Shown in pieces: positions 46,902 to 59,600 of a DNA stretch of 64,000 nucleotides. A model generated the notes under the pieces. It was not told the origin of the DNA and ran no database searches. It worked only from the letters and a program-made list of their open reading frames with translations. Position 1 is the first letter of the stretch, and every line of letters begins with the position of its first letter. A program made the translations under genes and the position numbers. Source of the stretch: Acidobacteriota bacterium (lineage in GTDB: Bacteria > Acidobacteriota > Vicinamibacteria > Vicinamibacterales > 2-12-FULL-66-21); contig QHWT01000072.1 in NCBI GenBank assembly GCA_003222675.1, positions 102,338-166,337 on the forward strand, given 5' to 3'.

Positions 46902-47148
46902 TGCAAGTGCGGGTCACGCCCGAATTGGCCAGGAAATTAAGCGACGTCTCGCCGCAAGTGCCGGTCGCGCGCCCGGATGAACTCGTCGCGGCCGCATTGA
47001 CTGGTTACGTCGAAAACTGGTCGCTCTCCGTGAGACGCTCGACCCTCGCTATGACGAACTGAAGAGCGGCCGCGTGGCGCCGATCGACGGCGAGGAGGCG
47101 GCCAGGCGCCTGCGTGACAGGAGCGAGCGCCGACGTGCGGGCGGATGA
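46902..47148 (+). pseudogene. ParD/CopG-like antitoxin gene, frameshifted
   Basis: MQVRVTPELARKLSDVSPQV..PDELVAAALTGYVE is the ribbon-helix-helix-like head of a type II antitoxin. One base is missing near 47018-47022; the next frame continues LRETLDPRYDELKSGRVAPI DGEEAARRLRDRSERRR-type sequence, which is the usual tail (SGRV.PIDGEE) of this antitoxin family. The stop overlaps the ATG of a toxin-like remnant (GGATGA), as in real toxin-antitoxin pairs. Confidence 0.65.
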
Positions 47149-47351
47149 GCGGTTACGCTCTCCATCCTGAGGTGCCGAGACGACCACTTCCGCTCTTCTC
47201 CGAGCACGTGCGTCTGGTGTCGCCAACGGAGCTGCACGTCATCGCCACACCCGGCCGCGTGGAGCGCTCGTGCCAAATGACATGGCACAATCAAACGCCG
47301 ATATGCCAGCCTTACTATTCCATCTCCACGAACAGACGATCTCATCTGTGA
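47145..47351 (+). pseudogene. remnant of a ParE/RelE-type toxin
   Basis: Starts MSGYALHPE, the typical start of RelE/ParE-family toxins paired with such antitoxins, and overlaps the antitoxin stop. After nine residues the match is lost; the remainder shows none of the catalytic-core pattern. Probably inactive. Confidence 0.45.
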
Positions 47352-48853: not shown

Positions 48854-48865
48854 TGGCGTCCCCAA
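48854..48865. other. left attachment-site core
   Basis: TGGCGTCCCCAA, identical to the complement of the tRNA-Glu 3' end including CCA. Similarity continues weakly (GGG..AT..GGA.CC against the T-arm), as expected of an attachment copy. Confidence 0.65.
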
Positions 48866-49058
48866 TGGGTATCGGATCCTGCCCGACAGAGCAACGGCTA
48901 CTGATTGCGGCCGCATAAACGGCGCTAGAATCCACTTTCGGCGGCACGGGCTTGCAAACCGCGTCCGCGCTTCTCCTCGGGGCGCGGCTGCCGCCGAATC
49001 TTCCTTTTCCCCCCATCACCCGAGGATCTCTACCGCTGCGCCCGAGGAAGCAGCGTAC

Positions 49059-49547
49059 ATGGCACGGCCGCATCTATCGTTTCTTCCCAATCTAAAAACC
49101 ATTGAACGCGAGTACAAAGCCGGCGATCTGACCGCGCTGTATCTCGCCCTCGGCGTTCTGTACGAGCGACGCGACATACCAAACTGGCTATGGATCGCGC
49201 TCATGAATGCTGTGGACCAATTACTCAGGCAGCGGAAGCTGAATCGCAAAATGGATCAACTCAGCGATCTGCGAGCACGGGCTGAACACCTTGGCCGTTA
49301 CTTGATGGTGGAGCGCTGTTTAAAAGACGGCATGGCACCGAATGCCGCATATCAGGCCGTGCGCGATGAACGCGAACGGATCACCGGGATTTCGGTCACG
49401 CCAGGTGCCATTCGCCAAAGCTATCGTCGCCTTGCTCGTCAAAAGCGAACGCTCGGAAGTCTTGTCCGCATGGGCGCTCTCGAGGGTGAGAAGTATGCCC
49501 TTTCGGTCTTGCGTACAAAATCCCGCGTAATCGGTACCCGCAAATAA
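49059..49547 (+). CDS. hypothetical protein, helical and basic (first gene of the element)
   Basis: 162 aa, all-helical prediction and strongly basic. MARPHLSFLPNLKTIEREYK, DIPNWLWIALMNAVDQLL, ALEHLGRYLMVERCL-like and VTPGAIRQSYRRLARQKRTL suggest a DNA-associated protein; GAIRQSYRRL could be a recognition helix. No family recognised. It is first inside the left attachment site. The ATG at 49059 fits; the open frame upstream crosses the junction. Confidence 0.6.
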   Translation: MARPHLSFLPNLKTIEREYKAGDLTALYLALGVLYERRDIPNWLWIALMNAVDQLLRQRKLNRKMDQLSDLRARAEHLGRYLMVERCLKDGMAPNAAYQAVRDERERITGISVTPGAIRQSYRRLARQKRTLGSLVRMGALEGEKYALSVLRTKSRVIGTRK

Positions 49548-49588
49548 GTACCTACCTACCCGCGGCCAGTCCTGTTTAGCCTTTCGGA

Positions 49589-49789
49589 ATGCGGTTTCCG
49601 AAAGACCTCATCGAGACGGCTGACGCGGCCCGCATCCTCGGGGTGACTCCCGACGCCGTCCGACAAATGGCCAGGCGAGGCGACCTGCGCGTGCAGTTCA
49701 CGAGTCCGCGCGGTTGGCGCTTGTACCATCGCGCCGTGGTGGAACGGCTCGCCGCTGTGCGACGACGCTTCGCGGACGATGCCGCGTAG
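49589..49789 (+). CDS. excisionase-like helix-turn-helix protein
   Basis: 66 aa. LIETADAARILGVTPDAVRQ, MARRGDLRV and SPRGWRLYHRAVVERLAA match the MerR/AlpA-like HTH_17 domain used by excisionases and small phage regulators. Probably binds the attachment site to aid excision with the serine recombinase, or regulates early genes. Four short genes in a row start here. Confidence 0.75.
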   Translation: MRFPKDLIETADAARILGVTPDAVRQMARRGDLRVQFTSPRGWRLYHRAVVERLAAVRRRFADDAA

Positions 49790-49800
49790 TCGAGTGGACC

Positions 49801-49992
49801 ATGGGAGAAAACGCCGAGGACCCAGGACCACCGGACGTGCGCGCCGAGTACGACCGTCAGCTTGCGGAACGGCTCGCCGAGTTGCTCGTCATCGAGCACC
49901 GACGGCGTGCGGCCCTCCGCGCAAACGTCGACGGCCCCGACGCCGCGGCACACCCCCCGACACACAAAGGCGGCGCGCAGGACACCACGTGA
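49801..49992 (+). CDS. small hypothetical protein
   Basis: 63 aa, acidic, central helix VRAEYDRQLAERLAELLVIE HRRRAALR-type, no signal or membrane segment. Starts 11 bases after the excisionase-like gene and its stop overlaps the GTG of the replication gene (GTGA). Unknown function. Confidence 0.55.
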   Translation: MGENAEDPGPPDVRAEYDRQLAERLAELLVIEHRRRAALRANVDGPDAAAHPPTHKGGAQDTT

Positions 49993-50798
49993 GCTTCGAC
50001 GCGATGAAACGCGTCTACGCGTCGCACCTCGAGCACTCTCTCCGCTTTCTGGCAATCACATTGGCGTGGTTTGCAAACGATGACGGCAGTCGCGTGTTTC
50101 CAAGCGTCGAGACGCTGAGCGATTACCTTGGAGTCAGCGATCGCCAGGTGCGGGCGGGTCTGAGTCGATTGCGTGACTTGGAGGTGCTCCTCGTCGAGCA
50201 ATCCGGCGGAGGTACCGGCCGCAGTACGCGATATCGCATCAACCTGCCGGTCCTCGAGCAGATTCCGCCGCCGCGGAAACACCGCGTGGTGAGCTCGACG
50301 ACAGTTCTCAGACACCGCGAAAAAATGGGCCGCAAACCCGGAAGTCTACTTCAGGGTTTAACGTCCGTAAACATTGACGAATCTAGTGTCCCGGGATCTG
50401 TCCCTCAGGGACAAACCCTGAAGTGTACTTCCGCGAACCCTGAAGCCGGCTTCCGCCAAACCCTGAAGCCGGCTTCCGCGGAACCCGGAAGTGTACTTCC
50501 GCGAACCCTGAAGCCTACTTCAGGGGATCAGTACATAGATCCGTCAATTGATCCCCCAGTGGATCCGTCACGGAGCGTACATAAAGATCACCGCGCGCGC
50601 GCAAACGCCGCTGCGCGGGATTCTCTCGCTGATAAAAGCAAGCATCCCTCTCCTCAGTCGCAGCGCCTGGCCGACGATCCCGCAGCGCTCGAGCGCGTCA
50701 AACAGCAACTCGACGAAGTCAAGAAACAGCTTCGAATCAAAACGATCGCGCCCCCGATCGTGTCCAAACGAGCGAAGGCGCGATATCCGCGGCAATGA
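49989..50798 (+). CDS. replication-initiator-like HTH protein containing iterons
   Basis: 269 aa from a GTG coupled to the previous stop. Residues about 8-80 (HSLRFLAITLAWFANDDGSR, VFPSVETLSDYLGVSDRQVR, AGLSRLRDLEVL) form a winged helix like those of phage replication proteins (DnaD/lambda O-like helix-turn-helix_36 type). A disordered middle (about 110-190) is encoded by DNA iterons; a C-terminal helix (LERVKQQLDEVKKQLRIK) ends it. Layout parallels lambda O, where the origin lies inside the initiator gene. Inferred role: binds the iterons and recruits host helicase. Confidence 0.65.
   Translation: MSFDAMKRVYASHLEHSLRFLAITLAWFANDDGSRVFPSVETLSDYLGVSDRQVRAGLSRLRDLEVLLVEQSGGGTGRSTRYRINLPVLEQIPPPRKHRVVSSTTVLRHREKMGRKPGSLLQGLTSVNIDESSVPGSVPQGQTLKCTSANPEAGFRQTLKPASAEPGSVLPRTLKPTSGDQYIDPSIDPPVDPSRSVHKDHRARANAAARDSLADKSKHPSPQSQRLADDPAALERVKQQLDEVKKQLRIKTIAPPIVSKRAKARYPRQ
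50334..50526. repeat. iteron array, candidate replication origin
   Basis: Units AACCCTGAAGnnnnCTTCCGC begin at 50414, 50436, 50459, 50482 and 50504 (spacing 22, 23, 23, 22), each with an inner GAAG-CTTC dyad; a separate unit at 50334-50360 is a longer palindrome (AAACCC...GGGTTT). TGTCCCTCAGGGACA (50400-50414) is a perfect palindrome between them. Spacing not divisible by three shows that DNA, not protein sequence, is conserved. Confidence 0.75.
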
Positions 50799-50819
50799 CG
50801 ACCAACCGAGGAGACCGTG

Positions 50820-51029
50820 ATGCCCACACATGAAGCCGCGATCGTCGCTGAAGCCCGACGCGTCGCGCGGTTACAGGAGCGGCAGCGACGCTTTCGACGC
50901 GAGCTGAAGGCGTGCGCCGCGGAGCTCAAGACCGCGAAGAAAAATCTGCGCGTCCTGGCGTCCGCCGCGCGCGATCCGTTCGAGCAATCACCGCCGCTGC
51001 GCGTCTTCGGCGAGCGCGCCGGGGGCTAG
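50820..51029 (+). CDS. small basic coiled-coil protein
   Basis: 69 aa after GAGGAG. A single long basic helix, EARRVARLQERQRRFRRELK then ACAAELKTAKKNLRVL. Possibly DNA- or protein-binding. It follows the initiator gene by 21 bases, so likely the same transcript. Confidence 0.6.
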   Translation: MPTHEAAIVAEARRVARLQERQRRFRRELKACAAELKTAKKNLRVLASAARDPFEQSPPLRVFGERAGG

Positions 51030-51580
51030 ATGGCGACGCCGGCGCCGACGCGATCGCCACGGCGCCACGGCGCCACGGCCGGCGCGCCTGTGAGGACCTG
51101 CAATGGCTCGAGCTCGTCACGGCGCAGAGCAACGGGCCGGGGAAAATCGACGCTCTGGAGCCTGCACGAGGCCTGGCGGGACACGGCGAGCACCTTTTCC
51201 GAAAAACCGGGGGAGGCGTCAGCTTTCGCGTAAGGGGGCAGGACGACGTGACTGTTGCACCGAATCCGCCATCGCCGCGGCGAGGCCGCCGTGTGTGCTT
51301 CTGGATGGCCGGTGAGGCGGGACGAAAAGCAAACGGGCGACGTTGACGAAGACAATGTTGACGGCGCTCGACGCGCTCAGCCTGGAGTTGTTCGATCGCC
51401 GTGCCCGTCAGGCGCCCGTCGCCGTCGATCGGCGCGCCTCCGCAGGCGGCCGGCGCCGCTATGACGATGCCCGCACGGCCGTGTTGTCGACCGTCCTCGA
51501 GGCGCAGCGTCGCCGGCGGCGATCGCCCGATTTGAAAACCCGTCCAATCTGAAACTTTTGAATTCGCGGTCGCATACAGA

Positions 51581-51728
51581 GGGGGAGGCTGAGGTTCTGA
51601 GGCGATGATCTGTAGAAAACGCGATACCCCAGGGGTCCAAAGCAGTGCGGCACCCACGCGACGACGCCTAGGCCCCCAGGGGATAGGCATTTTCTACAAT
51701 CGTTTCACCTAAGAACCCTGAGCCCCCC
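51581..51728. repeat. long imperfect inverted repeat, potential 148-base hairpin
   Basis: Left arm 51581-51635 and right arm 51673-51728 are inverted copies; exact blocks include GTAGAAAA (51612-51619) with TTTTCTAC (51690-51697), CCCC/GGGG at the base of the loop and GGTTCT/AGAACC outside. No ORF. It could be a packaging or nicking site, a single-strand origin, or a structured RNA. Confidence 0.65.
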
Positions 51729-51767
51729 GTCGCTGTCAACGTGCAGCAAATGAATTCGTGAGTTCGC

Positions 51768-51783
51768 CGGTGTACGTACACCG
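51768..51783. promoter_or_regulatory. perfect 16-bp palindrome, candidate operator
   Basis: CGGTGTACGTACACCG lies 28 bases before the start of the XRE-like regulator gene, where an autoregulatory operator is expected. Confidence 0.55.
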
Positions 51784-51811
51784 CAGCGGACTGGCCTGAA
51801 AATCTTTTCCT

Positions 51812-52114
51812 ATGCACGACAAGCCTTCTGCGCAGCAACTCAGTGACGCGCTCATCGCCGCGATTCGGACGTCGGACTACCGCGGGTACGCCATCGCGTA
51901 TGCGATCGGCGTGTCGCCGTCGCAGTTGTCCGCGTGGGTGAATCGGATTCAACCGGTACGCGCGGATGATGCCCGCGTACGTAAGCTTGCCGCCCTGATG
52001 GGCGTTGAGACGTCCGATGCGTTCCGACCGTGGCGCAGCACAACTCCATCCACGGTCGGGACCGCCGGCGTCGAGTTCCGCGGCGGCCGTCGAGACCCTA
52101 TCTGGAGACTCTGA
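51812..52114 (+). CDS. XRE-like helix-turn-helix regulator
   Basis: 100 aa. Helices LSDALIAAIRTSDYRGYAIA, YAIGVSPSQLSAWVN and DARVRKLAALMGV give a lambda-repressor-like DNA-binding domain (recognition helix SPSQLSAWVN). The C-terminal 30 residues are unstructured. Placed before the structural-like genes and behind a perfect palindrome, it probably controls its own promoter and the late block. Confidence 0.7.
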   Translation: MHDKPSAQQLSDALIAAIRTSDYRGYAIAYAIGVSPSQLSAWVNRIQPVRADDARVRKLAALMGVETSDAFRPWRSTTPSTVGTAGVEFRGGRRDPIWRL

Positions 52115-52118
52115 CCGA

Positions 52119-52595
52119 ATGTCCACCAAACCCGATTTCCGATTTGCCCACATCCGCGCATCCGTCGCCAGCGAGATGTTCGCGTTCGCGCCCGATCACG
52201 TGCTGGAGCTCGCGCCCGGCGCGACGCGCTGGCCGGACAGCCTCCGCGGGCTCCTGTTCAACGGCCACACCGCGGACCTCCTCGAGACGCGGCCGACCTG
52301 GTGTCGGCGGACAATCGTCATCGACCCGGCGACATTCCGCAGCGTGCCCCCGCCGGCGCCGACCTCGGAGCCGTTGCTCGACGAAGCGGCGGTCTGCGCG
52401 CGGCTCGGCCTCACGGCGGCCGCCTTCCAGCGTTTGGCGCTCAGTCGTGGCTTCCCCCATAACCGATCGACCCGGTTCGCGTTCAACCACGAGACGAACA
52501 GCAGCACGTACGCGCCGCTCTGGGTGGCCCGGGAAGTCGACAACTGGTACGCCGGCATTCGCGCGCTCGCGCCGGTCGCTGGGCAATCGTTGTGA
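52119..52595 (+). CDS. hypothetical protein of the element
   Basis: 158 aa. ASEMFAFAPDHVLELAPGAT, RPTWCRRTIVIDPATFRS, DEAAVCARLGLTAAAFQRLA (HTH-like) and APLWVAREVDNWYAGI. No family recognised; mixed alpha/beta and soluble. It starts 4 bases after the regulator and its stop overlaps the protease gene (GTGA). Confidence 0.55.
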   Translation: MSTKPDFRFAHIRASVASEMFAFAPDHVLELAPGATRWPDSLRGLLFNGHTADLLETRPTWCRRTIVIDPATFRSVPPPAPTSEPLLDEAAVCARLGLTAAAFQRLALSRGFPHNRSTRFAFNHETNSSTYAPLWVAREVDNWYAGIRALAPVAGQSL

Positions 52596-53302
52596 CCCCG
52601 TACGAAACGGCCACGAAGCGCGCCGGTCTACCGCCCTGGCTGCCGGCCGGGTACGCGCGTGTGCTCGCCTGGCGCACCCGACCGGAACTGTGCGCCCGCT
52701 GTCACCGGCGCGCGGCGGACATCCTCGAGGGCACGCAGGCGCTGTGCCGCGGCTGTCACACGACGGGGCGGGGCGACGCCGCCACACGCCAGCGGCAGCA
52801 CCGCCAGGCCGCGATCGAAGTCAGTCTTCGCCAGGACGACACGGGACGCGGGGTCGTCGGATTGGCCGTGCCATTTGGCGAGCCGGTTGAACTGAAGGCC
52901 GGGCACTGGGAGCAGTTCGAGCGGGGCGCGTTCCGCTACAGTCCGACTCTGGTCCCGTTGACGCGGAGTCACGGCGGTCCGGAAATCGCGCGGGCGCGCG
53001 CCTTTGAATTGCCGCACGGCTTGTTCTTCGAAGCGTCCGATCTGCGCCATCAGGCGGATGTGCTCCGCGGGGCGTCGCTCGTCTCCATTGCCTTCGATCG
53101 CGACAACGTGCAGTCCACCTACGAATCGTTCCGCGGCGGCCGCTTGCGCCGCATTCACGAAGCCCGGTTGAGCCAAATCTCGCTAGTCGCCTCGCCGGCC
53201 TATCGCATGACGTGGGCCGCGGCCCGAACGCCGGAGGCCTGGCAGAAGGTGTACCGCGGTATGCAGGCCGCGCTCGATCGCATCGTCGAGGAGTGCGCGT
53301 GA
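52592..53302 (+). CDS. HK97-type prohead protease with N-terminal zinc ribbon
   Basis: 236 aa. Residues about 32-56 (CARCHRRAADILEGTQALCRGC) are a CxxC...CxxC zinc ribbon. Residues about 85-215 match the HK97 prohead protease fold: VVGLAVPFGEPVELKAGHWE, QFERGAFRYS, PLTRSHGGPEIARA with the likely catalytic His, DVLRGASLVSIAFD with the nucleophile Ser, and EARLSQISLVASPAYRMT. In phages it cleaves capsid protein during maturation. No capsid gene is seen nearby, so it may process a helper phage's capsid or have another use. Confidence 0.75.
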   Translation: MTPYETATKRAGLPPWLPAGYARVLAWRTRPELCARCHRRAADILEGTQALCRGCHTTGRGDAATRQRQHRQAAIEVSLRQDDTGRGVVGLAVPFGEPVELKAGHWEQFERGAFRYSPTLVPLTRSHGGPEIARARAFELPHGLFFEASDLRHQADVLRGASLVSIAFDRDNVQSTYESFRGGRLRRIHEARLSQISLVASPAYRMTWAAARTPEAWQKVYRGMQAALDRIVEECA

Positions 53303-53448
53303 CGGCCACGGTGTGCCTGATCGCCGGCTTCGTGCTCGCGGTCCTCGGGATCGCGCTGTGGTCACTCCCGGCAGCGTGTCTCGTCGCCGGCGTGACGCTG
53401 TTTATCAGTGGCGGCCTCGAGCATCGGCAGCAGGCGCCGCGCAAGTAA
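53299..53448 (+). CDS. small two-helix membrane protein, holin-like
   Basis: 49 aa: two hydrophobic helices (VCLIAGFVLAVLGIAL and PAACLVAGVTLFISGG) and a charged tail HRQQAPRK. GTG start coupled to the protease gene (GTGA). Size and layout fit a holin or a small membrane protein of a phage-like element; no direct proof. Confidence 0.55.
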   Translation: MTATVCLIAGFVLAVLGIALWSLPAACLVAGVTLFISGGLEHRQQAPRK

Positions 53449-53454
53449 GGGGGA

Positions 53455-53856
53455 ATGCCCATGGAACCCATCGCCGTCCTGCCGCGCGCGCTGCTCGACG
53501 CATACGCGGCCTTTCATATCCACGCGCGCGCGCTCTTCGACGTGCTCAACGCGCAACACCGGGCCGGCCATCTGCGCGCGAGCGCCGAGGATGTCGCGGC
53601 CATTCAGACCGCCACGGACGCGTTCAACGCAATCGGCGCGGAATCCCGGCGGGCCAATGCGACAGTCGCCGAGCGCCAGGCATGGCTCAAGACCGTCCAC
53701 ACGGCGCTCGACCGCCGCGCGTCGCAAGCGATCGATCTGAACATCAACCTGGCCCCCAAAGGCCGGATGCTCAAGGCCGTGACGCGGAACGCACAGGGCC
53801 AGGTCGAGATGGTGATCGAGACGCCGATCAACGATGACCCCGTGAAAGGTGAGTGA
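53455..53856 (+). CDS. hypothetical element protein
   Basis: 133 aa. Long helices in the first 90 residues (PRALLDAYAAFHIHARALFD, ASAEDVAAIQTATDAFNAIG), then a strand-rich end (GQVEMVIETPIND). Soluble, no family recognised; in a row of structural-like genes with small gaps. Confidence 0.55.
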   Translation: MPMEPIAVLPRALLDAYAAFHIHARALFDVLNAQHRAGHLRASAEDVAAIQTATDAFNAIGAESRRANATVAERQAWLKTVHTALDRRASQAIDLNINLAPKGRMLKAVTRNAQGQVEMVIETPINDDPVKGE

Positions 53857-53860
53857 GTGA

Positions 53861-54229
53861 ATGGGAACGAAGGATGATTTCCGCGGCGTCGGCTACTGGA
53901 ATGAAACGCTCGTCGCGTCCGCGGCACGCACGACGACCGGCAACACCGGCAACATTTTCGGCTACGGCGCGGCGACGTCGCTGCGCGTGCTGCTGGACGT
54001 CTCGGCCGCGTCCGGCACGACGCCGTCCCTGACCGTGCTCGTCGAAGACAGCTTCGACGGCGGCACCAACTGGAACACGATCGGCACGTTCGCGGCGAAG
54101 ACCGCGGTCAGCCGCGAAGCGATCAACATCACGACGCCGTTCAGCGAGTTGATCCGCGTGAGCTGGACGATCACCGGCACGACGCCGTCGTTCACGTTCA
54201 GCGTGAACACGATCGCCCGCACGCGGTAA
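53861..54229 (+). CDS. virion-like beta-sandwich protein
   Basis: 122 aa, beta-rich and Thr/Ser/Gly-rich: LVASAARTTTGNTGNIFGYG, LRVLLDVSAASGTTPSLTVL, EDSFDGGTNWNTIGTFAA, ITGTTPSFTFSVNTIAR. Resembles small phage decoration or tail-associated proteins by composition only. Starts 4 bases after the preceding stop with GGTGAG upstream. Confidence 0.5.
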   Translation: MGTKDDFRGVGYWNETLVASAARTTTGNTGNIFGYGAATSLRVLLDVSAASGTTPSLTVLVEDSFDGGTNWNTIGTFAAKTAVSREAINITTPFSELIRVSWTITGTTPSFTFSVNTIARTR

Positions 54230-54233
54230 GCGG

Positions 54234-55409
54234 ATGGCACCTCCGAGCACGCCGGCAACGCCGACACCTGCGGACGGCGCCACGGCTGTCTCTGGGAACG
54301 CGCCGCCGGCCTTCACCTGGACCGCCCCGGGCGCGACCTCGTGTGAGATGTATTTTGGCCCATTCCCGCCGGGCGGCGATTCGATCATCGGCGGCGTGCG
54401 ATTTCCGGCGCAGGGGTTTGCGAGTCCTTGGCCGCCGCTCACCTGGACGCGCAACGGCGTCGGGAGTCTCTCGGGCGGCACGTTCACGTTTGACGAAGAA
54501 CCCAATACGGCCGGCGTGCAGGCCATGGCGCCGCTGAAGCGCGCGAAACGCTTCTACTGGCAGGTGTACGCGAGTAACGCCGACGGCACGACCGCCGGCC
54601 CGGTCTGGTCCTTCGTGACGGACGGCGCCGACGCGCCGGTACTGGTTGCCCCGGACAACGCGTCCGTGACGGATCTCAATCCGACGCTGTCGTGGAGTGC
54701 CGTCGGGGCCGAGTCGTATGACGTCTTCTTCGGCACCGTGAACCCGCCGCCGCTCGTGTCGTCGGGTCAGGCGGCGAGCGGGTACACGCCCGCAGGACCG
54801 CTGATTGATCAGCAAACGTATTACTGGCAGATCGTCGCCAAGGTTGGCGACGCCACGACGGCGGGATCTGTGTGGAGTTTCACCGCCGATGCCACTGCGG
54901 GGGACATCTTGGTTCTAACGAAAGACGTGACGACGCACGACATCGTGAACACCGGCGCCGCCACGACTGCGTGGTCCTACACCGTCCCGGGCGGCACGTT
55001 ATCGACGGATCGGGCGCTGCGGCTCACGGTCACCGGCGACTATCTCAATAACAGCGGGAGCAGTGACACCTTCGTCGCGCGCGTGAAGTTCGGCGGCGTG
55101 CAGATCGCCACACTGGTGTGCAACACCGTGCCGACGAACGCGAATCGTCGGGCGTTGCTGCTCGAGGCGCTGATCTCGGCTGCGGGCACGACGAATGCGC
55201 AGACGGTTCGAGGACGGACGTCGTTAGGGGTGACCGGCTCGAACAGCGGCTCCGGCGATGTGCCGGCCTTTGGCGAAATGCATGATGTGCACAACGCGCT
55301 GACGGTTGATTCCACGGTGAATCAAACGCTGCTGGTTGAGTTTGACCACACCGCGGCGAACGCGAACCTGAGCGCGCGCACGCTGGCGGTGTGGGTCGAG
55401 AAGTTGTGA
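54234..55409 (+). CDS. surface or tail-fibre-like protein with FnIII-type domains
   Basis: 391 aa. Two fibronectin-III-like repeats: PTPADGATAVSGNAPPAFTW...KRFYWQVYASNADG..GPVWSFVT and VLVAPDNASVTDLNPTLSW...QTYYWQIVAKVGDA..GSVWSFTA. The C-terminal 170 residues are a beta-rich domain (ALRLTVTGDYLNNSGSSDTF, VARVKFGGVQIATLVCNTVP) such as occurs on virion surfaces. Starts 4 bases after the previous stop. Likely a decoration or receptor-binding protein; inference. Confidence 0.6.
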   Translation: MAPPSTPATPTPADGATAVSGNAPPAFTWTAPGATSCEMYFGPFPPGGDSIIGGVRFPAQGFASPWPPLTWTRNGVGSLSGGTFTFDEEPNTAGVQAMAPLKRAKRFYWQVYASNADGTTAGPVWSFVTDGADAPVLVAPDNASVTDLNPTLSWSAVGAESYDVFFGTVNPPPLVSSGQAASGYTPAGPLIDQQTYYWQIVAKVGDATTAGSVWSFTADATAGDILVLTKDVTTHDIVNTGAATTAWSYTVPGGTLSTDRALRLTVTGDYLNNSGSSDTFVARVKFGGVQIATLVCNTVPTNANRRALLLEALISAAGTTNAQTVRGRTSLGVTGSNSGSGDVPAFGEMHDVHNALTVDSTVNQTLLVEFDHTAANANLSARTLAVWVEKL

Positions 55410-55410
55410 T

Positions 55411-55650
55411 CTAGTGTTCGAGCAGCGCGACGACACTGCTCTCGGGGATCCGCGTCGTGCGCGGCGACAACGTGATCGCGCGCAGCTGCCCGGACGCAAT
55501 CAGTTTGCGGACGGTGTTGACGGTGCAATTGAGATGCACCGCGACCTCGGGCAGCGTCAACAGGCGCGTGCCCTCGAGGCGTAACGCTTGCTGATCGGGA
55601 TGCCGCCGATCGGCCGCGACGGGATCCGACACACGTATGTTAGGCTGCAC
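55411..55650 (-). CDS. helix-turn-helix protein, excisionase-type, on the opposite strand
   Basis: 79 aa. LLTLPEVAVHLNCTVNTVRK, LIASGQLRAITLSPRTTRI and PESSVVALLE match the HTH_17/excisionase fold. The only minus-strand gene within the element, convergent with the fibre-like gene (1-base gap). A terminator-like hairpin lies in its leader (55697-55745), which suggests attenuation. Confidence 0.7.
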   Translation of the reverse strand: MQPNIRVSDPVAADRRHPDQQALRLEGTRLLTLPEVAVHLNCTVNTVRKLIASGQLRAITLSPRTTRIPESSVVALLEH

Positions 55651-55696
55651 GTCGCCTGCGCATGGACGCGACTCGTTTCGTCAGCGTAAGGAAGTA

Positions 55697-55745
55697 GAAG
55701 AAAACGGCCCGGCGCCGCGTGATGATGGAAACGCCGCGCCAGGCC
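55697..55745 (-). terminator. Rho-independent-like hairpin in the leader of the minus-strand HTH gene
   Basis: On the minus strand GGCCTGGCGCGGCGT pairs with GCGCGGCGCCGGGCC-like sequence, followed by GTTTTCTTCT. No minus-strand gene lies upstream of it, so it can act only on leader transcripts of the HTH gene or on antisense RNA. Confidence 0.5.
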
Positions 55746-55835
55746 TGAGCAGTCAGCAAGCGTTCACCTTGCCGACGACGCCTGCACCAAAGTGTAGCAG
55801 GCCTCTCGCCGGCCTCTTTGCCAGAGGGAGGCCAC

Positions 55836-56066
55836 ATGGAACTCGTCAAAGATGCCCCGCTCCTCCCACACACGCCGTCGTCCGGCGAACGCGTGTACCG
55901 CTCGATCAATCGTCTGTCGTTGCTGTCGTCGTTGCTGTTCACGTCGAGCAGTGATGGCACCAACACGCTCGACGCCGATCACATGCGCGCGCTCTCGGAG
56001 TACCTCGAAGAGATTCGCGATGATCTACAGGAGGTGCACTGTGTGGACGACGGCGGTGTGCGATGA
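55836..56066 (+). CDS. small acidic hypothetical protein
   Basis: 76 aa, ATG with GAGGGAGG upstream. A helical middle (YRSINRLSLLSSLLFTSSSD) and an acidic helix (LSEYLEEIRDDLQEVH). Overlaps the next gene (ATGA). Confidence 0.55.
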   Translation: MELVKDAPLLPHTPSSGERVYRSINRLSLLSSLLFTSSSDGTNTLDADHMRALSEYLEEIRDDLQEVHCVDDGGVR

Positions 56067-56362
56067 CGGCCACGCTCGTCTCGTTCACGACGGACGAGCC
56101 TGCTGCAAAGGAACGCCAACTGAAGGACCGGTGGCGCCAGTGCTACGACGAGTTGCGCACCACGGCGCGCGCCGGCGTGCTCGCTCCGCGCGGGGGCGGC
56201 CCCACCAAAGATGCACTGGAGTCGATGTGGCACGCGCATGAGCGGTACACGAGACATCGCTGCGCCGGGTACTGGATCGCGTGGATGACGCGGAGCGTGC
56301 GCAGATCCTCCAGCAGTTGTACGGGCCGACCCGAACTAAGCTGCGGCACACCAGCGAACTGA
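56063..56362 (+). CDS. hypothetical protein, probably the first part of a frameshifted gene
   Basis: 99 aa. The start overlaps the previous stop. KERQLKDRWRQCYDELRTTA and KDALESMWHAHERYT are helical; after residue 64 the sequence becomes Cys/Arg/Ser-rich and odd. The next frame from about 56252 reads HETSLRRVLDRVDDAERAQI and joins smoothly to the ORF 56281-56481, so one gene of about 139 codons with a one-base shift is likely. Confidence 0.5.
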   Translation: MTATLVSFTTDEPAAKERQLKDRWRQCYDELRTTARAGVLAPRGGGPTKDALESMWHAHERYTRHRCAGYWIAWMTRSVRRSSSSCTGRPELSCGTPAN

Positions 56363-56481
56363 TCCCGCCCGAACGAAAACTGATCACCGACTATCGCGCG
56401 CTCGACGACCAGGCGCGCGCGATCGTGCGGCTGTTGATGGATCGCCTGGCCATCGTTCCTGATGCGGACGGGGCGCGATGA
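56281..56481 (+). CDS. hypothetical protein or second part of the frameshifted gene
   Basis: 66 aa from a GTG: DDAERAQILQQLYGPTRTKL, LIPPERKLITDYRALDDQAR, AIVRLLMDRLAIVP. Helical and well composed. It may be separate, with its own GTG start, or the true C-terminus of the 56063 gene. Confidence 0.5.
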   Translation: MDDAERAQILQQLYGPTRTKLRHTSELIPPERKLITDYRALDDQARAIVRLLMDRLAIVPDADGAR

Positions 56482-56603
56482 TGCGAGATCATCCGTTCAG
56501 CATCTGGACCTTAGGGGGGATTCCCGGAGGCGGCACAGGTGTCCCAGCACCCGGCGATCTTGAGTCGTGGGGCTCCACGTGGAGAACCGCGTCGCCGCAT
56601 TGA
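56478..56603 (+). CDS. possible small Gly/Pro-rich protein
   Basis: 41 aa starting at ATGATG that overlaps the preceding stop: MRDHPFSIWTLGGIPGGGTG VPAPGDLES-type composition. The end may be shifted, because another frame nearby reads VENRVAALNASMAKLNRR, a typical helix. Weak evidence. Confidence 0.3.
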   Translation: MMRDHPFSIWTLGGIPGGGTGVPAPGDLESWGSTWRTASPH

Positions 56604-56676
56604 ATGCCTCGATGGCCAAACTCAATCGGCGCTGACTTTCAAGTTGTCGAGGGAAGCGGGCGAACAAACCACAACG

Positions 56677-56754
56677 ATGATCCGACTGACATGGGCTATC
56701 GCGGCGCTCACGGTGATGATCGCCGTGCTGACGGCGGTAACGCTATGGAAATGA
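56677..56754 (+). CDS. possible single-helix membrane peptide
   Basis: 25 aa: MIRLTWAIAALTVMIAVLTA VTLWK, one membrane helix with a Lys end. It overlaps the start of the recombinase gene (10 bases). May be the membrane part of a larger broken accessory protein. Confidence 0.35.
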   Translation: MIRLTWAIAALTVMIAVLTAVTLWK

Positions 56755-58487
56755 TGATCGCTGCCATCTACGCTCGCAAGAGTACGGAACAAACCGGCAT
56801 GGTCGACGAACAGAAATCCGTCGCACGTCAGGTGGCGCACGCGCGTGACTACGCGCAGCGCAAAGGCTGGACGGTCGACGAGGCCTCCGTCTACATCGAC
56901 GACGGGATCTCCGGCGCCGAGTTCGCGAAACGTCCCGGCTTCGTCCGGCTGATGAACGCCCTGGCGCCGCGGCCGCGGTTTCAGGTCCTCGTCATGTCGG
57001 AGGAATCACGGCTGGGGGGCGAAGCGATCGAAACTGCGTACGCGCTCAAGCAGTTGCTGCGCGCCGGCGTGCGCGTGTTTTTCTATCTCGAGGACCGCGA
57101 GCGCACACTCGATACGCCGACCGACAAGATCATGCTGTCACTCGCCGCGTTCGCCGACGAACTCGAGCGCGAGAAAGCACGCCAGCGCACGTACGACGCA
57201 ATGCGGCGGAAAGTGGAACAGCGCCAGGTCACCGGCGGGCAGTGCTTCGGCTATCGCAACGTCGACGTGACGGCGGCCGGACCCGACGGCCGACCAAAAC
57301 GGCAATACGTGCGGCGCGAGCTCGAGGAGCACGAGGCGGCCGTCGTGCGTCAAATTTTTGAACTCTGTGCCATGGGGGAGGGGTTCAAGGAGATCACGAA
57401 GCGACTCAACGCCGATCGTGCACCGGCGCCGCGATCGCAGCAGGGGCGGCTGCGCGCTTGGACGCCGTCCTCGATCCGCGAAATTCTGCTCCGCGAGAGT
57501 TACCGCGGCGTGCTCGTCTGGAACAAGACGCGGAAGCGGAACGCGGACGGCCAGACCCGGCCAACCGCACGTCCGCCGTCGGAATGGCTGCGCATTCAGG
57601 CAGATGACCTACGGGTTGTCTCGGATGCGCTGTGGCAGGCCGCGCATACACAGCTTGCGAACCGACGCACGCGCTACGCAAAAACCGCGTCAGGCGCGGC
57701 GCAGGCGCTCGATCCGTGCGCCAGGCGCCGGAGCTATCTCCTGAGCGGCTTCGCGCGCTGCAACGTCTGCGGCGGCGCCATACAGGCCGTCTCGCGGTCG
57801 TCTACGACGGGACGGCTGTTCCGGTACGTCTGCGGCCAGTACGTGAACCGCGGCGAGCACGTCTGCGGCAATCGCCGCATGGCGCGGATGCAGACCGCCG
57901 ACGCGGCCATCCGGGAGCTGCTGGCGAACGAGGTGCTTCGGCCGGGCGTCCTGGAGCGGGCGCTCGACCTGGCACTCGAGACGCTCAGCGGCGATCGCCA
58001 GCAGGACGAACGCGAGCGGCAGCGGCGCGAGCTCGAGCAGCGACTCGCGAAGCTCGAAACGCAGCTCGCGAACCTGGCAGACACGGCGGCGCGCGGCGGC
58101 GCGGTACCGGTCATCCTCGAGGCGCTCACGCGCACCGACGACGAACGACGTGCGGTCCTGGCGCAGCTTGAGGCAGAAGCCCGTAACCGACCTGTTACGG
58201 CCATTCCAGCAACGGCCGCACTCCGGCGCGAGTTGCACACCTACGTGCGCGAGTGGGAGCAGCTGACAACAGCCACGACGGATCACGTGCGCGCGACGCG
58301 CGGCTTACTCGAAACGGTGCTCAGTCGTCGGATTGAGTTTCGGCCGTTCGATCGCGCCGATGGTGCCGCGATGTACGAGTTGATTGTTCCACTGCAGTTC
58401 GATCGCTTGCTGACGATCGCGGTCCCATCACTCGCTCGGGTAGGACTGGCGTCCCCAACGGGATTCGAACCCGTGTTTTGGCCTTGA
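56745..58487 (+). CDS. large serine recombinase (integrase of the element)
   Basis: 580 aa. The resolvase domain has the catalytic Ser in IYARKSTEQ (about residue 13), YIDDGISGAEFAKRPGFVRL and MLSLAAFADELEREKARQRT. Then the recombinase domain (HEAAVVRQIFELCAMGEGFK), the zinc ribbon CNVCGGAI...YVCG...HVCGN from residue 339, and a coiled coil (RRELEQRLAKLETQLANLA). It would insert and, with a directionality factor, excise the element. The last 14 codons (about LASPTGFEPVFWP) are the complement of tRNA-Glu, so the natural C-terminus may differ in the free form. Start could also be the ATG at 56754. Confidence 0.9.
   Translation: MEMMIAAIYARKSTEQTGMVDEQKSVARQVAHARDYAQRKGWTVDEASVYIDDGISGAEFAKRPGFVRLMNALAPRPRFQVLVMSEESRLGGEAIETAYALKQLLRAGVRVFFYLEDRERTLDTPTDKIMLSLAAFADELEREKARQRTYDAMRRKVEQRQVTGGQCFGYRNVDVTAAGPDGRPKRQYVRRELEEHEAAVVRQIFELCAMGEGFKEITKRLNADRAPAPRSQQGRLRAWTPSSIREILLRESYRGVLVWNKTRKRNADGQTRPTARPPSEWLRIQADDLRVVSDALWQAAHTQLANRRTRYAKTASGAAQALDPCARRRSYLLSGFARCNVCGGAIQAVSRSSTTGRLFRYVCGQYVNRGEHVCGNRRMARMQTADAAIRELLANEVLRPGVLERALDLALETLSGDRQQDERERQRRELEQRLAKLETQLANLADTAARGGAVPVILEALTRTDDERRAVLAQLEAEARNRPVTAIPATAALRRELHTYVREWEQLTTATTDHVRATRGLLETVLSRRIEFRPFDRADGAAMYELIVPLQFDRLLTIAVPSLARVGLASPTGFEPVFWP
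58447..58458. other. right attachment-site core in tRNA-Glu
   Basis: TGGCGTCCCCAA, identical to 48854-48865. Integration here leaves the tRNA whole. Confidence 0.65.
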
Positions 58488-58522
58488 AAGGGCCACGTCC
58501 TGGGCCTCTGGACGATGGGGAC
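58447..58522 (-). tRNA. tRNA-Glu(TTC), CCA encoded
   Basis: Acceptor GTCCCCA/TGGGGAC, D arm, anticodon arm GGCCCTTTCAAGGCC with anticodon TTC, T arm CGGGTTCGAATCCCG, then G and CCA. It is complete, 76 nt with CCA. The 3' end is the right attachment core of the 9.6-kb element, whose integrase gene overlaps it antisense. Confidence 0.93.
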
Positions 58523-58769: not shown

Positions 58770-59600
58770 TGTTGCGCGATCGAGGCCGCCGCGCGCGAGC
58801 TGCCGCGGCTGAAGGTCTCCGACAACAAACGGTTCCTCGTGACCGACGCGGGGCGCCCGTTCTTCTGGCTCGCGGACACCGCGTGGGAGCTCTTTCATCG
58901 ACTGACTCGAGAAGATGCCGATCGATATCTTCGCAACCGTGCCGCGCTTCGGTTCACCGTGATCCAGGCGGTCGCGCTTGCCGAATTCGATGGCCTGACG
59001 GCGCCGAATGCGTACGGCGAGACGCCCCTTCGCAGCAACGACCCCACACAGCCCAATGAGACGTACTTCGCGCACGTGGACTGGATCGTCGCGCGCGCGA
59101 ATGCGCGCGGCCTCTACATCGCCTTCCTGCCGACGTGGGGAGACAAGTGGAACAAGAAGTGGGGCACTGGTCCGGAGATCTTCACTCCCGCCAACGCCGA
59201 GCAGTACGGTGAGTGGCTCGGGCGACGATATCGTGAGCGGGGATCGTGTGGATTCTTGGCGGCGATCGGCCGATCGAGACGGATCTCCATCGTGAGATCC
59301 TTCGCGCGATGGCGCGCGGGCTGCGCCGCGGCGACGGCGGGGCGCACCTGATCACGCTGCACCCGGCCGGAGGACAGGGCTCCTCGACATGGTTTCATGC
59401 AATCCGCTGCAGCCGTGGACGGATGCGATCAATCAGCCGGGCCAGAATAGCGGTGAGCGAGAGTTCTCACCGCCCGATGCAGGCGAGATGTTCGACCGGG
59501 TGCTCGTCGTTGATGACGAGGCGAAGAATTATCCGCCGCCGGGCAGTCGTGACAGACGTGGAGTCGGCTCATTTCCGCGTTCGCGGCGGCCGCGCCGCGT
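58770..59600 (+). pseudogene. GH140-like (DUF4038) glycoside hydrolase, multiply frameshifted
   Basis: Three frames are needed. Frame 1 (to about 59240): [65 protein letters not shown], the apiosidase-like barrel start. Frame 2: [40 protein letters not shown]. Frame 3: [20 protein letters not shown], typical of the collagen-binding-like C-terminal domain. Roughly 150-200 middle residues are missing. A dead gene for a secreted pectin- or glycan-acting enzyme. Confidence 0.65.

Follow-up and report, generated by a model that had tools for sequence, protein, structure and literature searches.

A 9.6-kb serine-integrase element at tRNA-Glu in an Acidobacteriota bacterium: a candidate helper-dependent phage satellite of no named family

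Contig QHWT01000072.1 of an Acidobacteriota bacterium (GenBank assembly GCA_003222675.1, order Vicinamibacterales) carries at a tRNA-Glu gene a compact block of 9.6 kb with its own integrase and replication gene and with genes of virion type, and the question is what kind of mobile element this block represents. We studied it within a window of 64,000 nucleotides (positions 102,338 to 166,337 of the contig, forward strand); all positions below are those of the window. A first-pass annotation, made from the letters and a list of open reading frames, had proposed a phage satellite that borrows the capsid of a helper and might be of a new type. Here we show that the element is real: a serine-integrase element with a 12-bp core at the 3′ end of tRNA-Glu, a rep-like gene and a compact late run. 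Its best reading, which we hold to be somewhat better than an even proposition, is a helper-dependent phage satellite of no named family.

The boundaries that had been proposed are confirmed. TGGCGTCCCCAA is an exact 12-bp direct repeat with copies at 48854 and 58447 that bound an interval of 9,593 bp; allowing up to one mismatch, it matches three times in the 64 kb against 0.30 expected, and three or more matches arose in 0/100 shuffles. Since tRNA-Glu(ttc) (Rfam RF00005) occupies 58447-58522 on the minus strand, its 3′ end coincides exactly with the right copy. A matching second core is present in the parallel elements G057, G004 and L049. A search of the host's own genome with the late protein p07 found this copy alone. 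Just past the tRNA, at 58839-59351, lies part of an apiosidase-like gene (PF13204, 4e-53).

The integrase, p15, is a large serine recombinase, a point absent from the first-pass annotation. Its domains are PF00239 (87 bits), PF07508 (79.3) and PF13408 (33.2), with phrog_95 at 2e-83; since these are of the serine type, a tyrosine integrase was rejected. The 3′ end of the gene lies within tRNA-Glu in antisense, where the complement of the T-arm supplies the final codons (tail ...ASPTGFEPVFWP). When integrated the protein ends in ...GLASPTGFEPVFWP, taken from the tRNA antisense, and in the circle it is predicted to end in ...GLASPMGIGSCPTEQRLLIAAA. The frame crosses the attachment (att) core, so integration would swap the C-terminal tail of the integrase for tRNA-derived codons. 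A serine integrase in a tRNA gene is one of the element's more unusual features: a 2014 database paper gives serine integrases as not known to target tRNA genes, and no paper on serine integrases in tRNA-Glu was among the matches listed from the open-access literature.

The same arrangement recurs at related loci. Integrase alignment scans gave 35 loci in genome contigs and four IMG/VR contigs, and a wider alignment gave 28 IMG/VR loci including those four. The chosen loci with an integrase at E 1e-30, drawn from Acidobacteriota, Nitrospirota and IMG/VR, numbered 48, or 42 once six second copies of the same place (L013, L014, L015, L016, L023, L026) were removed. According to ARAGORN, a tRNA 3′ end falls within the integrase frame at 19 of the 42 (12 Glu, 6 Ala, 1 Ser). 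The tRNA T-arm motif, with up to two mismatches, is found from -90 to +60 nt of the stop at 25 of them; the background rate is 0.009 per 150 nt. Neither is seen at 14, which include the circular L086, L083 and L085, whose contigs end in the gene, and G004, where a core does lie at the integrase end but in opposite orientation. Three loci have an antisense-strand tRNA within 1 kb: L050, which is one of the 19, and L066 and L069, where the integrase frames are cut short. The last of these (L069:10795-11740), with its cut frame just before tRNA-Arg(tcg) and a 12-bp repeat 10.0 kb upstream, is perhaps another 10-kb element.

Within the phylum, a search of 297 genomes at E 1e-60 returned five integrases, ours included. 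Paired cores at tRNA-Glu accompany ours and those of G057 and G004, and in G071 a core-like sequence lies where the integrase ends, with no tRNA predicted there by ARAGORN. Beyond the tRNA-Glu of G003 (L019, G003:C1:6850-13325) come three cores in a span of 4.8 kb, of which the third has one mismatch, along with three stretches of integrase that are partial or interrupted; the sequence reads as clear remnants of successive insertions, stacked. An integrase tree of 39 rows, which omits the fragments L019, L066 and L069, unites the tRNA-Ala users (97/97) and intermixes Acidobacteriota, Nitrospirota and viral rows. Ours falls in no supported small clade, the tRNA-Glu users are not one group, and L022, L071, L099 and L100 sit on long branches. 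Related large serine integrases were also seen at L051-L059, L061, L063-L065, L067, L068 and L072, mostly metagenome-assembled genomes (MAGs) of Nitrospira or other Nitrospirota, and the 3′ ends of these genes run antisense into tRNA-Glu, tRNA-Ala(CGC), tRNA-Ser or the T-arm motif. The tRNA-targeting family thus appears to extend beyond Acidobacteriota and, entering repeatedly the 3′ ends of tRNA-Glu, tRNA-Ala and tRNA-Ser, thereby also offers integrases whose landing sites are conserved. At L051 (7747-11748, a Nitrospira MAG) a 13-bp repeat of the tRNA-Glu 3′ end lies 3.9 kb upstream of the tRNA and perhaps marks a very small element; L055 has a candidate second core at 4.2 kb.

Between the cores, the early genes agree with the earlier claims of excisionase-like proteins, a replication initiator with iterons and a regulator (Table 1). 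The initiator p03 is matched by nine replication-initiator or primosome PHROGs, all at E <= 0.0011. Its gene contains five copies of a 40-nt reference at 50313-50521, with 60-100% identity to that reference as a raw count that has no chance control; their starts are spaced by 101, 23, 22 and 23, and inverted copies at 50339-50359 pair with later ones, up to 50525. Because spacings of 22-23 are out of step with codons, the repeat seems to be maintained at the level of DNA and not of protein, which points to DNA binding sites. Lambda O is the comparison case for such binding-site repeats within an initiator gene. The imperfect inverted repeat that follows the early genes sits in the element's longest non-coding stretch and could be a regulatory or packaging site; the fold of 51540-51810 has a z of -2.88, with 2/200 shuffles equally stable.

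The late run p06-p11 consists of open frames with short gaps, and the p06 stop overlaps the p07 start by 4 nt, as p07 overlaps p08. Third-position guanine-cytosine (GC) content is 0.82-0.93 throughout, and we infer that such overlaps, close spacing and GC are rarely left by chance deletions. The prohead protease named in the first-pass annotation is p07, matched by PF04586 at 21.1 bits (cut-off 21), by phrog_2263 at 1.4e-6 and by phrog_80 at 3.8e-4; the best of the PHROGs bears the name 'major head protein' as a family of protease-capsid fusions, and p07 aligns with its protease end (positions 15-171 of 551). The CxxC...CxxC stretch of p07 (52640-52770) is perhaps the fused remnant of a zinc-finger protein. 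As to the virion-like proteins, the claim held for p10, which has a tail-family match, and for p11 it is left to inspection of its domain patterns. Relatives of p10 occur in 5 Arthrobacter phage records and, among 396 genomes of the phylum, in ours and one other. In G006 the relative of p10 follows a putative protease gene and comes immediately after a putative capsid gene, an assignment made by inspection. A structure model of p10 (predicted local distance difference test score, pLDDT, 54.5) suggests a beta sandwich with weak caudovirus matches and is taken as supportive only; PDB searches with p10 and p11 gave nothing significant. No relative of p11 or p07 was found in phage records, nothing significant matched p06 or p09 in family libraries or fetched loci, and IMG/VR yielded no relative to p07, p01, p11 or the integrase used singly, although it did so to the integrase alignments.

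No large terminase, portal or capsid appeared among the PHROGs and Pfam matches of the element's called proteins, and an NCBIfam scan of ten of them found no terminase, portal or capsid above cut-off. These profile searches, of the kind that the first-pass annotation had proposed, agree with its statement that capsid and terminase are lacking, and a complete temperate tailed prophage, which would need a large terminase subunit, portal and major capsid protein, was rejected. Two weak signals were set aside: p02 against the small-terminase family phrog_57 is an overlap of helix-turn-helix (HTH) only (20.4 bits), and p09 against NCBIfam MCP_Sipho reaches 13.7 bits for a cut-off of 75, below threshold and not counted. 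Mobilisation or conjugation families were absent from the Pfam and PHROGs matches, and PADLOC matched no defence gene in 10 proteins at E 0.01. Among the genes of Table 1 only p03, p07, p11 and the integrase exceed 162 amino acids (aa).

Table 1. Features of the element and its target, in window positions
Feature	Position	Strand	Basis
attL core TGGCGTCCCCAA	48854..48865	+	Exact repeat match; set beside cores of other elements
p01, 162 aa, no family; first gene after att	49059..49547	+	PHROGs/Pfam scans
p02, MerR/HTH_17 excisionase-like	49589..49789	+	PF13411 31.4 bits
p03, O-like replication initiator (HTH_36)	49989..50798	+	phrog_270 2.7e-12; PF13730 6.9e-10
Iteron-like repeats within rep (p03)	50313..50525	+	Repeat search
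p04, 70 aa, no family	50817..51029	+	PHROGs/Pfam scans
Imperfect long inverted repeat between early and late genes	51585..51740	.	Arms ~50 nt by inspection
p05, HTH regulator, repressor-like	51812..52114	+	phrog_2328 2.4e-4, weak
p06, 158 aa, no family	52119..52595	+	PHROGs, Pfam, NCBIfam scans
p07, S78 prohead-protease-like, N-terminal CxxC...CxxC stretch	52592..53302	+	PF04586, phrog_2263
p08, 49-aa membrane protein	53299..53448	+	phrog_502 4e-5
p09, 133 aa, no family	53455..53856	+	PHROGs, NCBIfam scans
p10, beta-rich phage virion protein	53861..54229	+	phrog_9522 5.5e-10 (tail family)
p11, 391 aa, Ig/fibronectin-like patterns, fibre-like by inspection	54234..55409	+	No family match above cut-off
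p12, HTH_17 excisionase/AlpA-like	55411..55650	-	PF12728 39.8 bits
p13, 76 aa, no family	55836..56066	+	PHROGs/Pfam scans
p14b, 66 aa, no family; overlaps alternative open reading frame 56063-56362	56281..56481	+	PHROGs/Pfam scans
p15, large serine integrase, 580 aa	56745..58487	+	Resolvase, Recombinase and zinc ribbon domains
attR core, 3′ end of tRNA-Glu	58447..58458	+	Repeat match and tRNA prediction
tRNA-Glu(ttc), integration target	58447..58522	-	tRNA prediction, Rfam RF00005

A head protease without a recognised capsid is found in 3/5 examined elements with both ends known (ours, L049 and L086) and was not seen in the other two (G057 and G004); the candidates L051, L055 and L069 and, as remnants, the G003 stack (1.9, 4.8 kb) were left out. 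Proteins of the other loci were scanned in part, namely 4/12 called in G057, 5/16 in L049, 8/17 in L086 (those >115 aa except the integrase) and 5/19 in G004. One close parallel is L049 (a Vicinamibacterales MAG, JAUXWO010000030.1, 163-10815), which spans 10,652 bp at the same tRNA-Glu with an integrase 48% identical to ours. It runs from a DnaB/primase-like gene through a head maturation protease (phrog_133, 1.1e-41), unknown proteins and a tape-measure-like protein (249 aa, 6e-6) to the integrase, and no capsid or terminase was recognised among its scanned proteins. It shares with ours the order of replication gene and head protease, whereas its protease is of the ClpP type and not S78, its replication gene is DnaB/primase-like and it has the tape-measure-like protein besides.

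L086 (G506, IMGVR_UViG_3300012041_000640) has the pattern in a circle. This record of 15,270 bp ends in an exact 123-bp terminal repeat, not of low complexity, which implies a circle of 15,147 bp; an assembler overlap would also mean a circle. Its attP carries TGGCGTCCCC and shares 17 bp with the tRNA-Glu of G004, G057 and G097, and its order of integrase, attP, a gene in the place of p01, xis and rep is the circular order of our element. The integrases are 47% identical, p02 is 52% identical over 48 aa to a protein downstream of the L086 attP, and the N-terminus of p03 matches an L086 protein at 30% over 71 aa (E 7.3e-5). L086 also has an S78 match (22.4 bits, Pfam cut-off 21), and no terminase, portal or capsid family was found among its scanned proteins. 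Unlike ours, it is larger and encodes a tape measure of 1,255 aa (3e-95) and a 1,063-aa protein without family; no BLAST match joins the late genes of the two at E 1e-4.

The two remaining elements are of other make. G057, with 9,957 bp between cores and a second left match 99-100 bp further out, has a primase-helicase (phrog_1156, 1.9e-28) and a restriction-like nuclease (8.8e-4). G004 (L017:7482 to L018:8898, G004:C40) covers 21.4 kb and has small and large terminase subunits (8.9e-16, 1.4e-23), a 2,042-aa protein (phrog_9880, 1108 bits) and the serine integrase at the end away from the tRNA; with an internal tyrosine integrase, it may be composite. Among partial contigs, L083 has a large terminase (1.5e-78) with S78-like and S49-type proteases, and L085 a protease-capsid fusion near the integrase. 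L095 (IMGVR_UViG_3300049734_000600) holds terminase, portal and an S78 protease-capsid fusion, and its 12.2 kb showed no evident tail gene; it has a tyrosine-integrase-like frame, by inspection, at one end and a serine integrase at the other, and resembles a capsid-forming satellite.

A phage of the type that might serve as helper is at hand in L084 (G504), a 50,390-bp record whose integrase end lies in tRNA-Glu and whose integrase is sister to that of L049 (100/99). The same tRNA and the sister integrases mean that phage and small element share site and integrase lineage. L084 encodes a large terminase (9.8e-61), a capsid (6.3e-21), an S49-type protease (1.5e-73) and a tape measure (3.4e-11); no second exact TGGCGTCCCC was found within the record.

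If the element is a helper-dependent satellite, its cycle might run as follows. The integrase and an excisionase-like protein would recombine the cores into a circle, which Rep and the iterons would replicate using the host helicase. The helper phage would supply capsid, packaging motor and tail, while the element's protease and p10/p11 might modify the helper virion, by capsid maturation, decoration or host adhesion, in favour of the 9.6-kb genome. After delivery the integrase would re-insert the element at tRNA-Glu. Orphan head proteases would then offer a testable idea, a new way of diverting the helper capsid. As a bolder and rather doubtful extension, we suggest a new satellite group of Acidobacteriota, and probably related phyla, with tRNA-targeting large serine integrases. 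Its mark would be an orphan head protease (S78 or ClpP) without a capsid gene, which would act on the helper shell by proteolysis, through mistimed or altered procapsid maturation, and not by a scaffold or decoration protein; the att core in the integrase frame would make the tail swap a possible state switch. A new type, as the first-pass annotation had it, is plausible in that no relative of p07 or p11 could be detected in the collections to which each was compared, and is tempered by the existence of L049 and L086 as relatives.

Several observations weigh against the satellite reading. We infer helper dependence and packaging from the sequence of the element, and weak profile matches carry much of the protease argument for p07 itself, a call that taken by itself is borderline. 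The p07 structure model is unusable (pLDDT 40), and its N-terminus nearly reaches a doubled-CXXCH model (20.4 vs 20.6 bits). For p07 itself, no relative turned up in 148 further genomes of the order or, by pattern, in phages, plasmids or IMG/VR. Pfam is what supports the S78-like assignments in L086 and L083; PHROGs at E 0.01 matched neither. The likeness to L086 outside the integrase is short in both xis and rep, and the L086 protein in the place of p01, of 195 aa, gives 27% in a forced alignment, which is not significant. A simple codon-based script, trained on long open reading frames of the window and nine loci and also used to call proteins in the other loci, missed p01, p03 and p05, and third-position GC is low in p01 (0.58) and p03 (0.62). 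The parallels have gaps as well: two L049 proteins without family, of 248 and 222 aa, could hide a capsid, and among the scanned proteins no virion gene or head protease was seen in G057 and no head protease or capsid in G004. The empty-site comparison that had been proposed gave no alignable empty site among the 26 loci compared: the 5′ side of the tRNA has ordered DNA matches to G092 (L040), but the 3′ side yielded nothing beyond short left-flank matches to G001 and G018. These resemble an antitoxin gene and were disregarded as empty-site evidence; by inspection, 47000-47170 is an antitoxin-like coding remnant similar to the G001 and G018 sequences.

Neither does the host supply an obvious partner. 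Its genome (99.9% complete, 3.9% contamination) has no match to Phage_portal or to the terminase family phrog_9, searches that were both positive in 4/14 control genomes, and so holds no resident helper of that type. As the terminases of L083, L084 and L095 have phrog_9 as their best family, and that of G004 does not, a helper of a type other than a phrog_9-terminase phage is possible in this host.

The most serious competitor, less probable than the satellite yet with a substantial claim, is a prophage of the L084/L086 kind that has lost its terminase, portal, capsid and tail genes and lies stranded with its integrase intact. An early module followed by protease-like, decoration-like and fibre-like genes and an integrase is the order expected to be left by such deletions; a head module could have left p07 and p10 behind, as the p10 relative of G006 follows a putative capsid gene, clear remnants of the integrase family are known in G003, and the lack of a resident helper of the tested type fits as well. 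The deletions would, however, have to number at least two, and yet the frames are open and the two start/stop overlaps neat. Moreover, the combination of head protease and no recognised capsid recurs with two unrelated types of protease in the three elements named above, and in L086 it occurs in a circle, so such forms do occur as circles. Both readings may in fact hold, because satellites may arise by phage reduction, one of two models discussed in PMC11389934.

An unlikely alternative is a self-replicating, integrative plasmid-like element, a phage-plasmid or mobile island moved by transformation or vesicles, in which the virion-like genes are repurposed. Its own rep-like gene, iteron-like repeats and integrase, the lack of a recognised packaging gene and the absence of both helper markers from the host genome would suit it, but p07 and p10 point to virions, and the mobilisation and conjugation families are missing from the Pfam and PHROGs matches. 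Very improbable, finally, is that the block is a degenerate island at an integration hot spot and that the labels of protease, decoration and fibre mostly over-read weak profile matches: p07 does stand at the cut-off of Pfam, no family matches p11, the two fold models are poor and p01, p03 and p05 are not called by composition, but p07 is also matched by phrog_2263 and phrog_80, Pfam S78 matches recur in L083, L085 and L086, and p10 matches a tail family at 5.5e-10.

How, then, does the candidate satellite compare with those already named? These include P4-like, PICI, cfPICI, PLE and PICMI, and others have been proposed from marine and soil bacteria (PMC11389934). In general traits our element is like them, as its sequence indicates both an integrase of its own at a specific site and its own origin or replication gene. 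PICI are defined by an AlpA/HTH regulator, a primase and their own small terminase or packaging redirector; p12 corresponds to the regulator, whereas neither a primase nor a small terminase or packaging redirector was recognised in our element beyond the HTH overlap of p02 with phrog_57. The P4-like set includes Psu, Sid, Delta/Ogr and the alpha primase, and our element has no Pfam or PHROGs match to Psu, Sid, Ogr or alpha primase and an integrase of the serine type. The capsid and packaging genes of cfPICI, which carry capsid, portal and terminase, have no recognised equivalent in ours, but the two have in common phage-derived morphogenesis genes in a small integrated element (PMC11389934). 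With P4, whose capsid-size proteins are Psu and Sid (PMC11389934), our element would share the alteration of the helper capsid. PICMI, from Vibrionaceae, are like ours in being small, in combining an integrase with HTH_17/AlpA and replication of their own and in having no capsid-remodelling genes, and the search model for them admits serine recombinase families; they integrate at fis, however, and need a DUF3987/DUF5906 primase, whereas our target is tRNA-Glu and no primase was matched by Pfam or PHROGs (PMC10803314).

Judged by these genes, the element fails at least one defining feature of P4-like, PICI, cfPICI and PICMI each, as the first-pass annotation had anticipated in matching it to no known family. 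Such statements of novelty refer to the searches named and to the open-access literature, where no paper on satellites in Acidobacteriota was among the matches listed. If the satellite reading is true, Acidobacteriota would join the hosts of the satellites compared here, and a serine integrase at a tRNA gene would add to their modes of integration.

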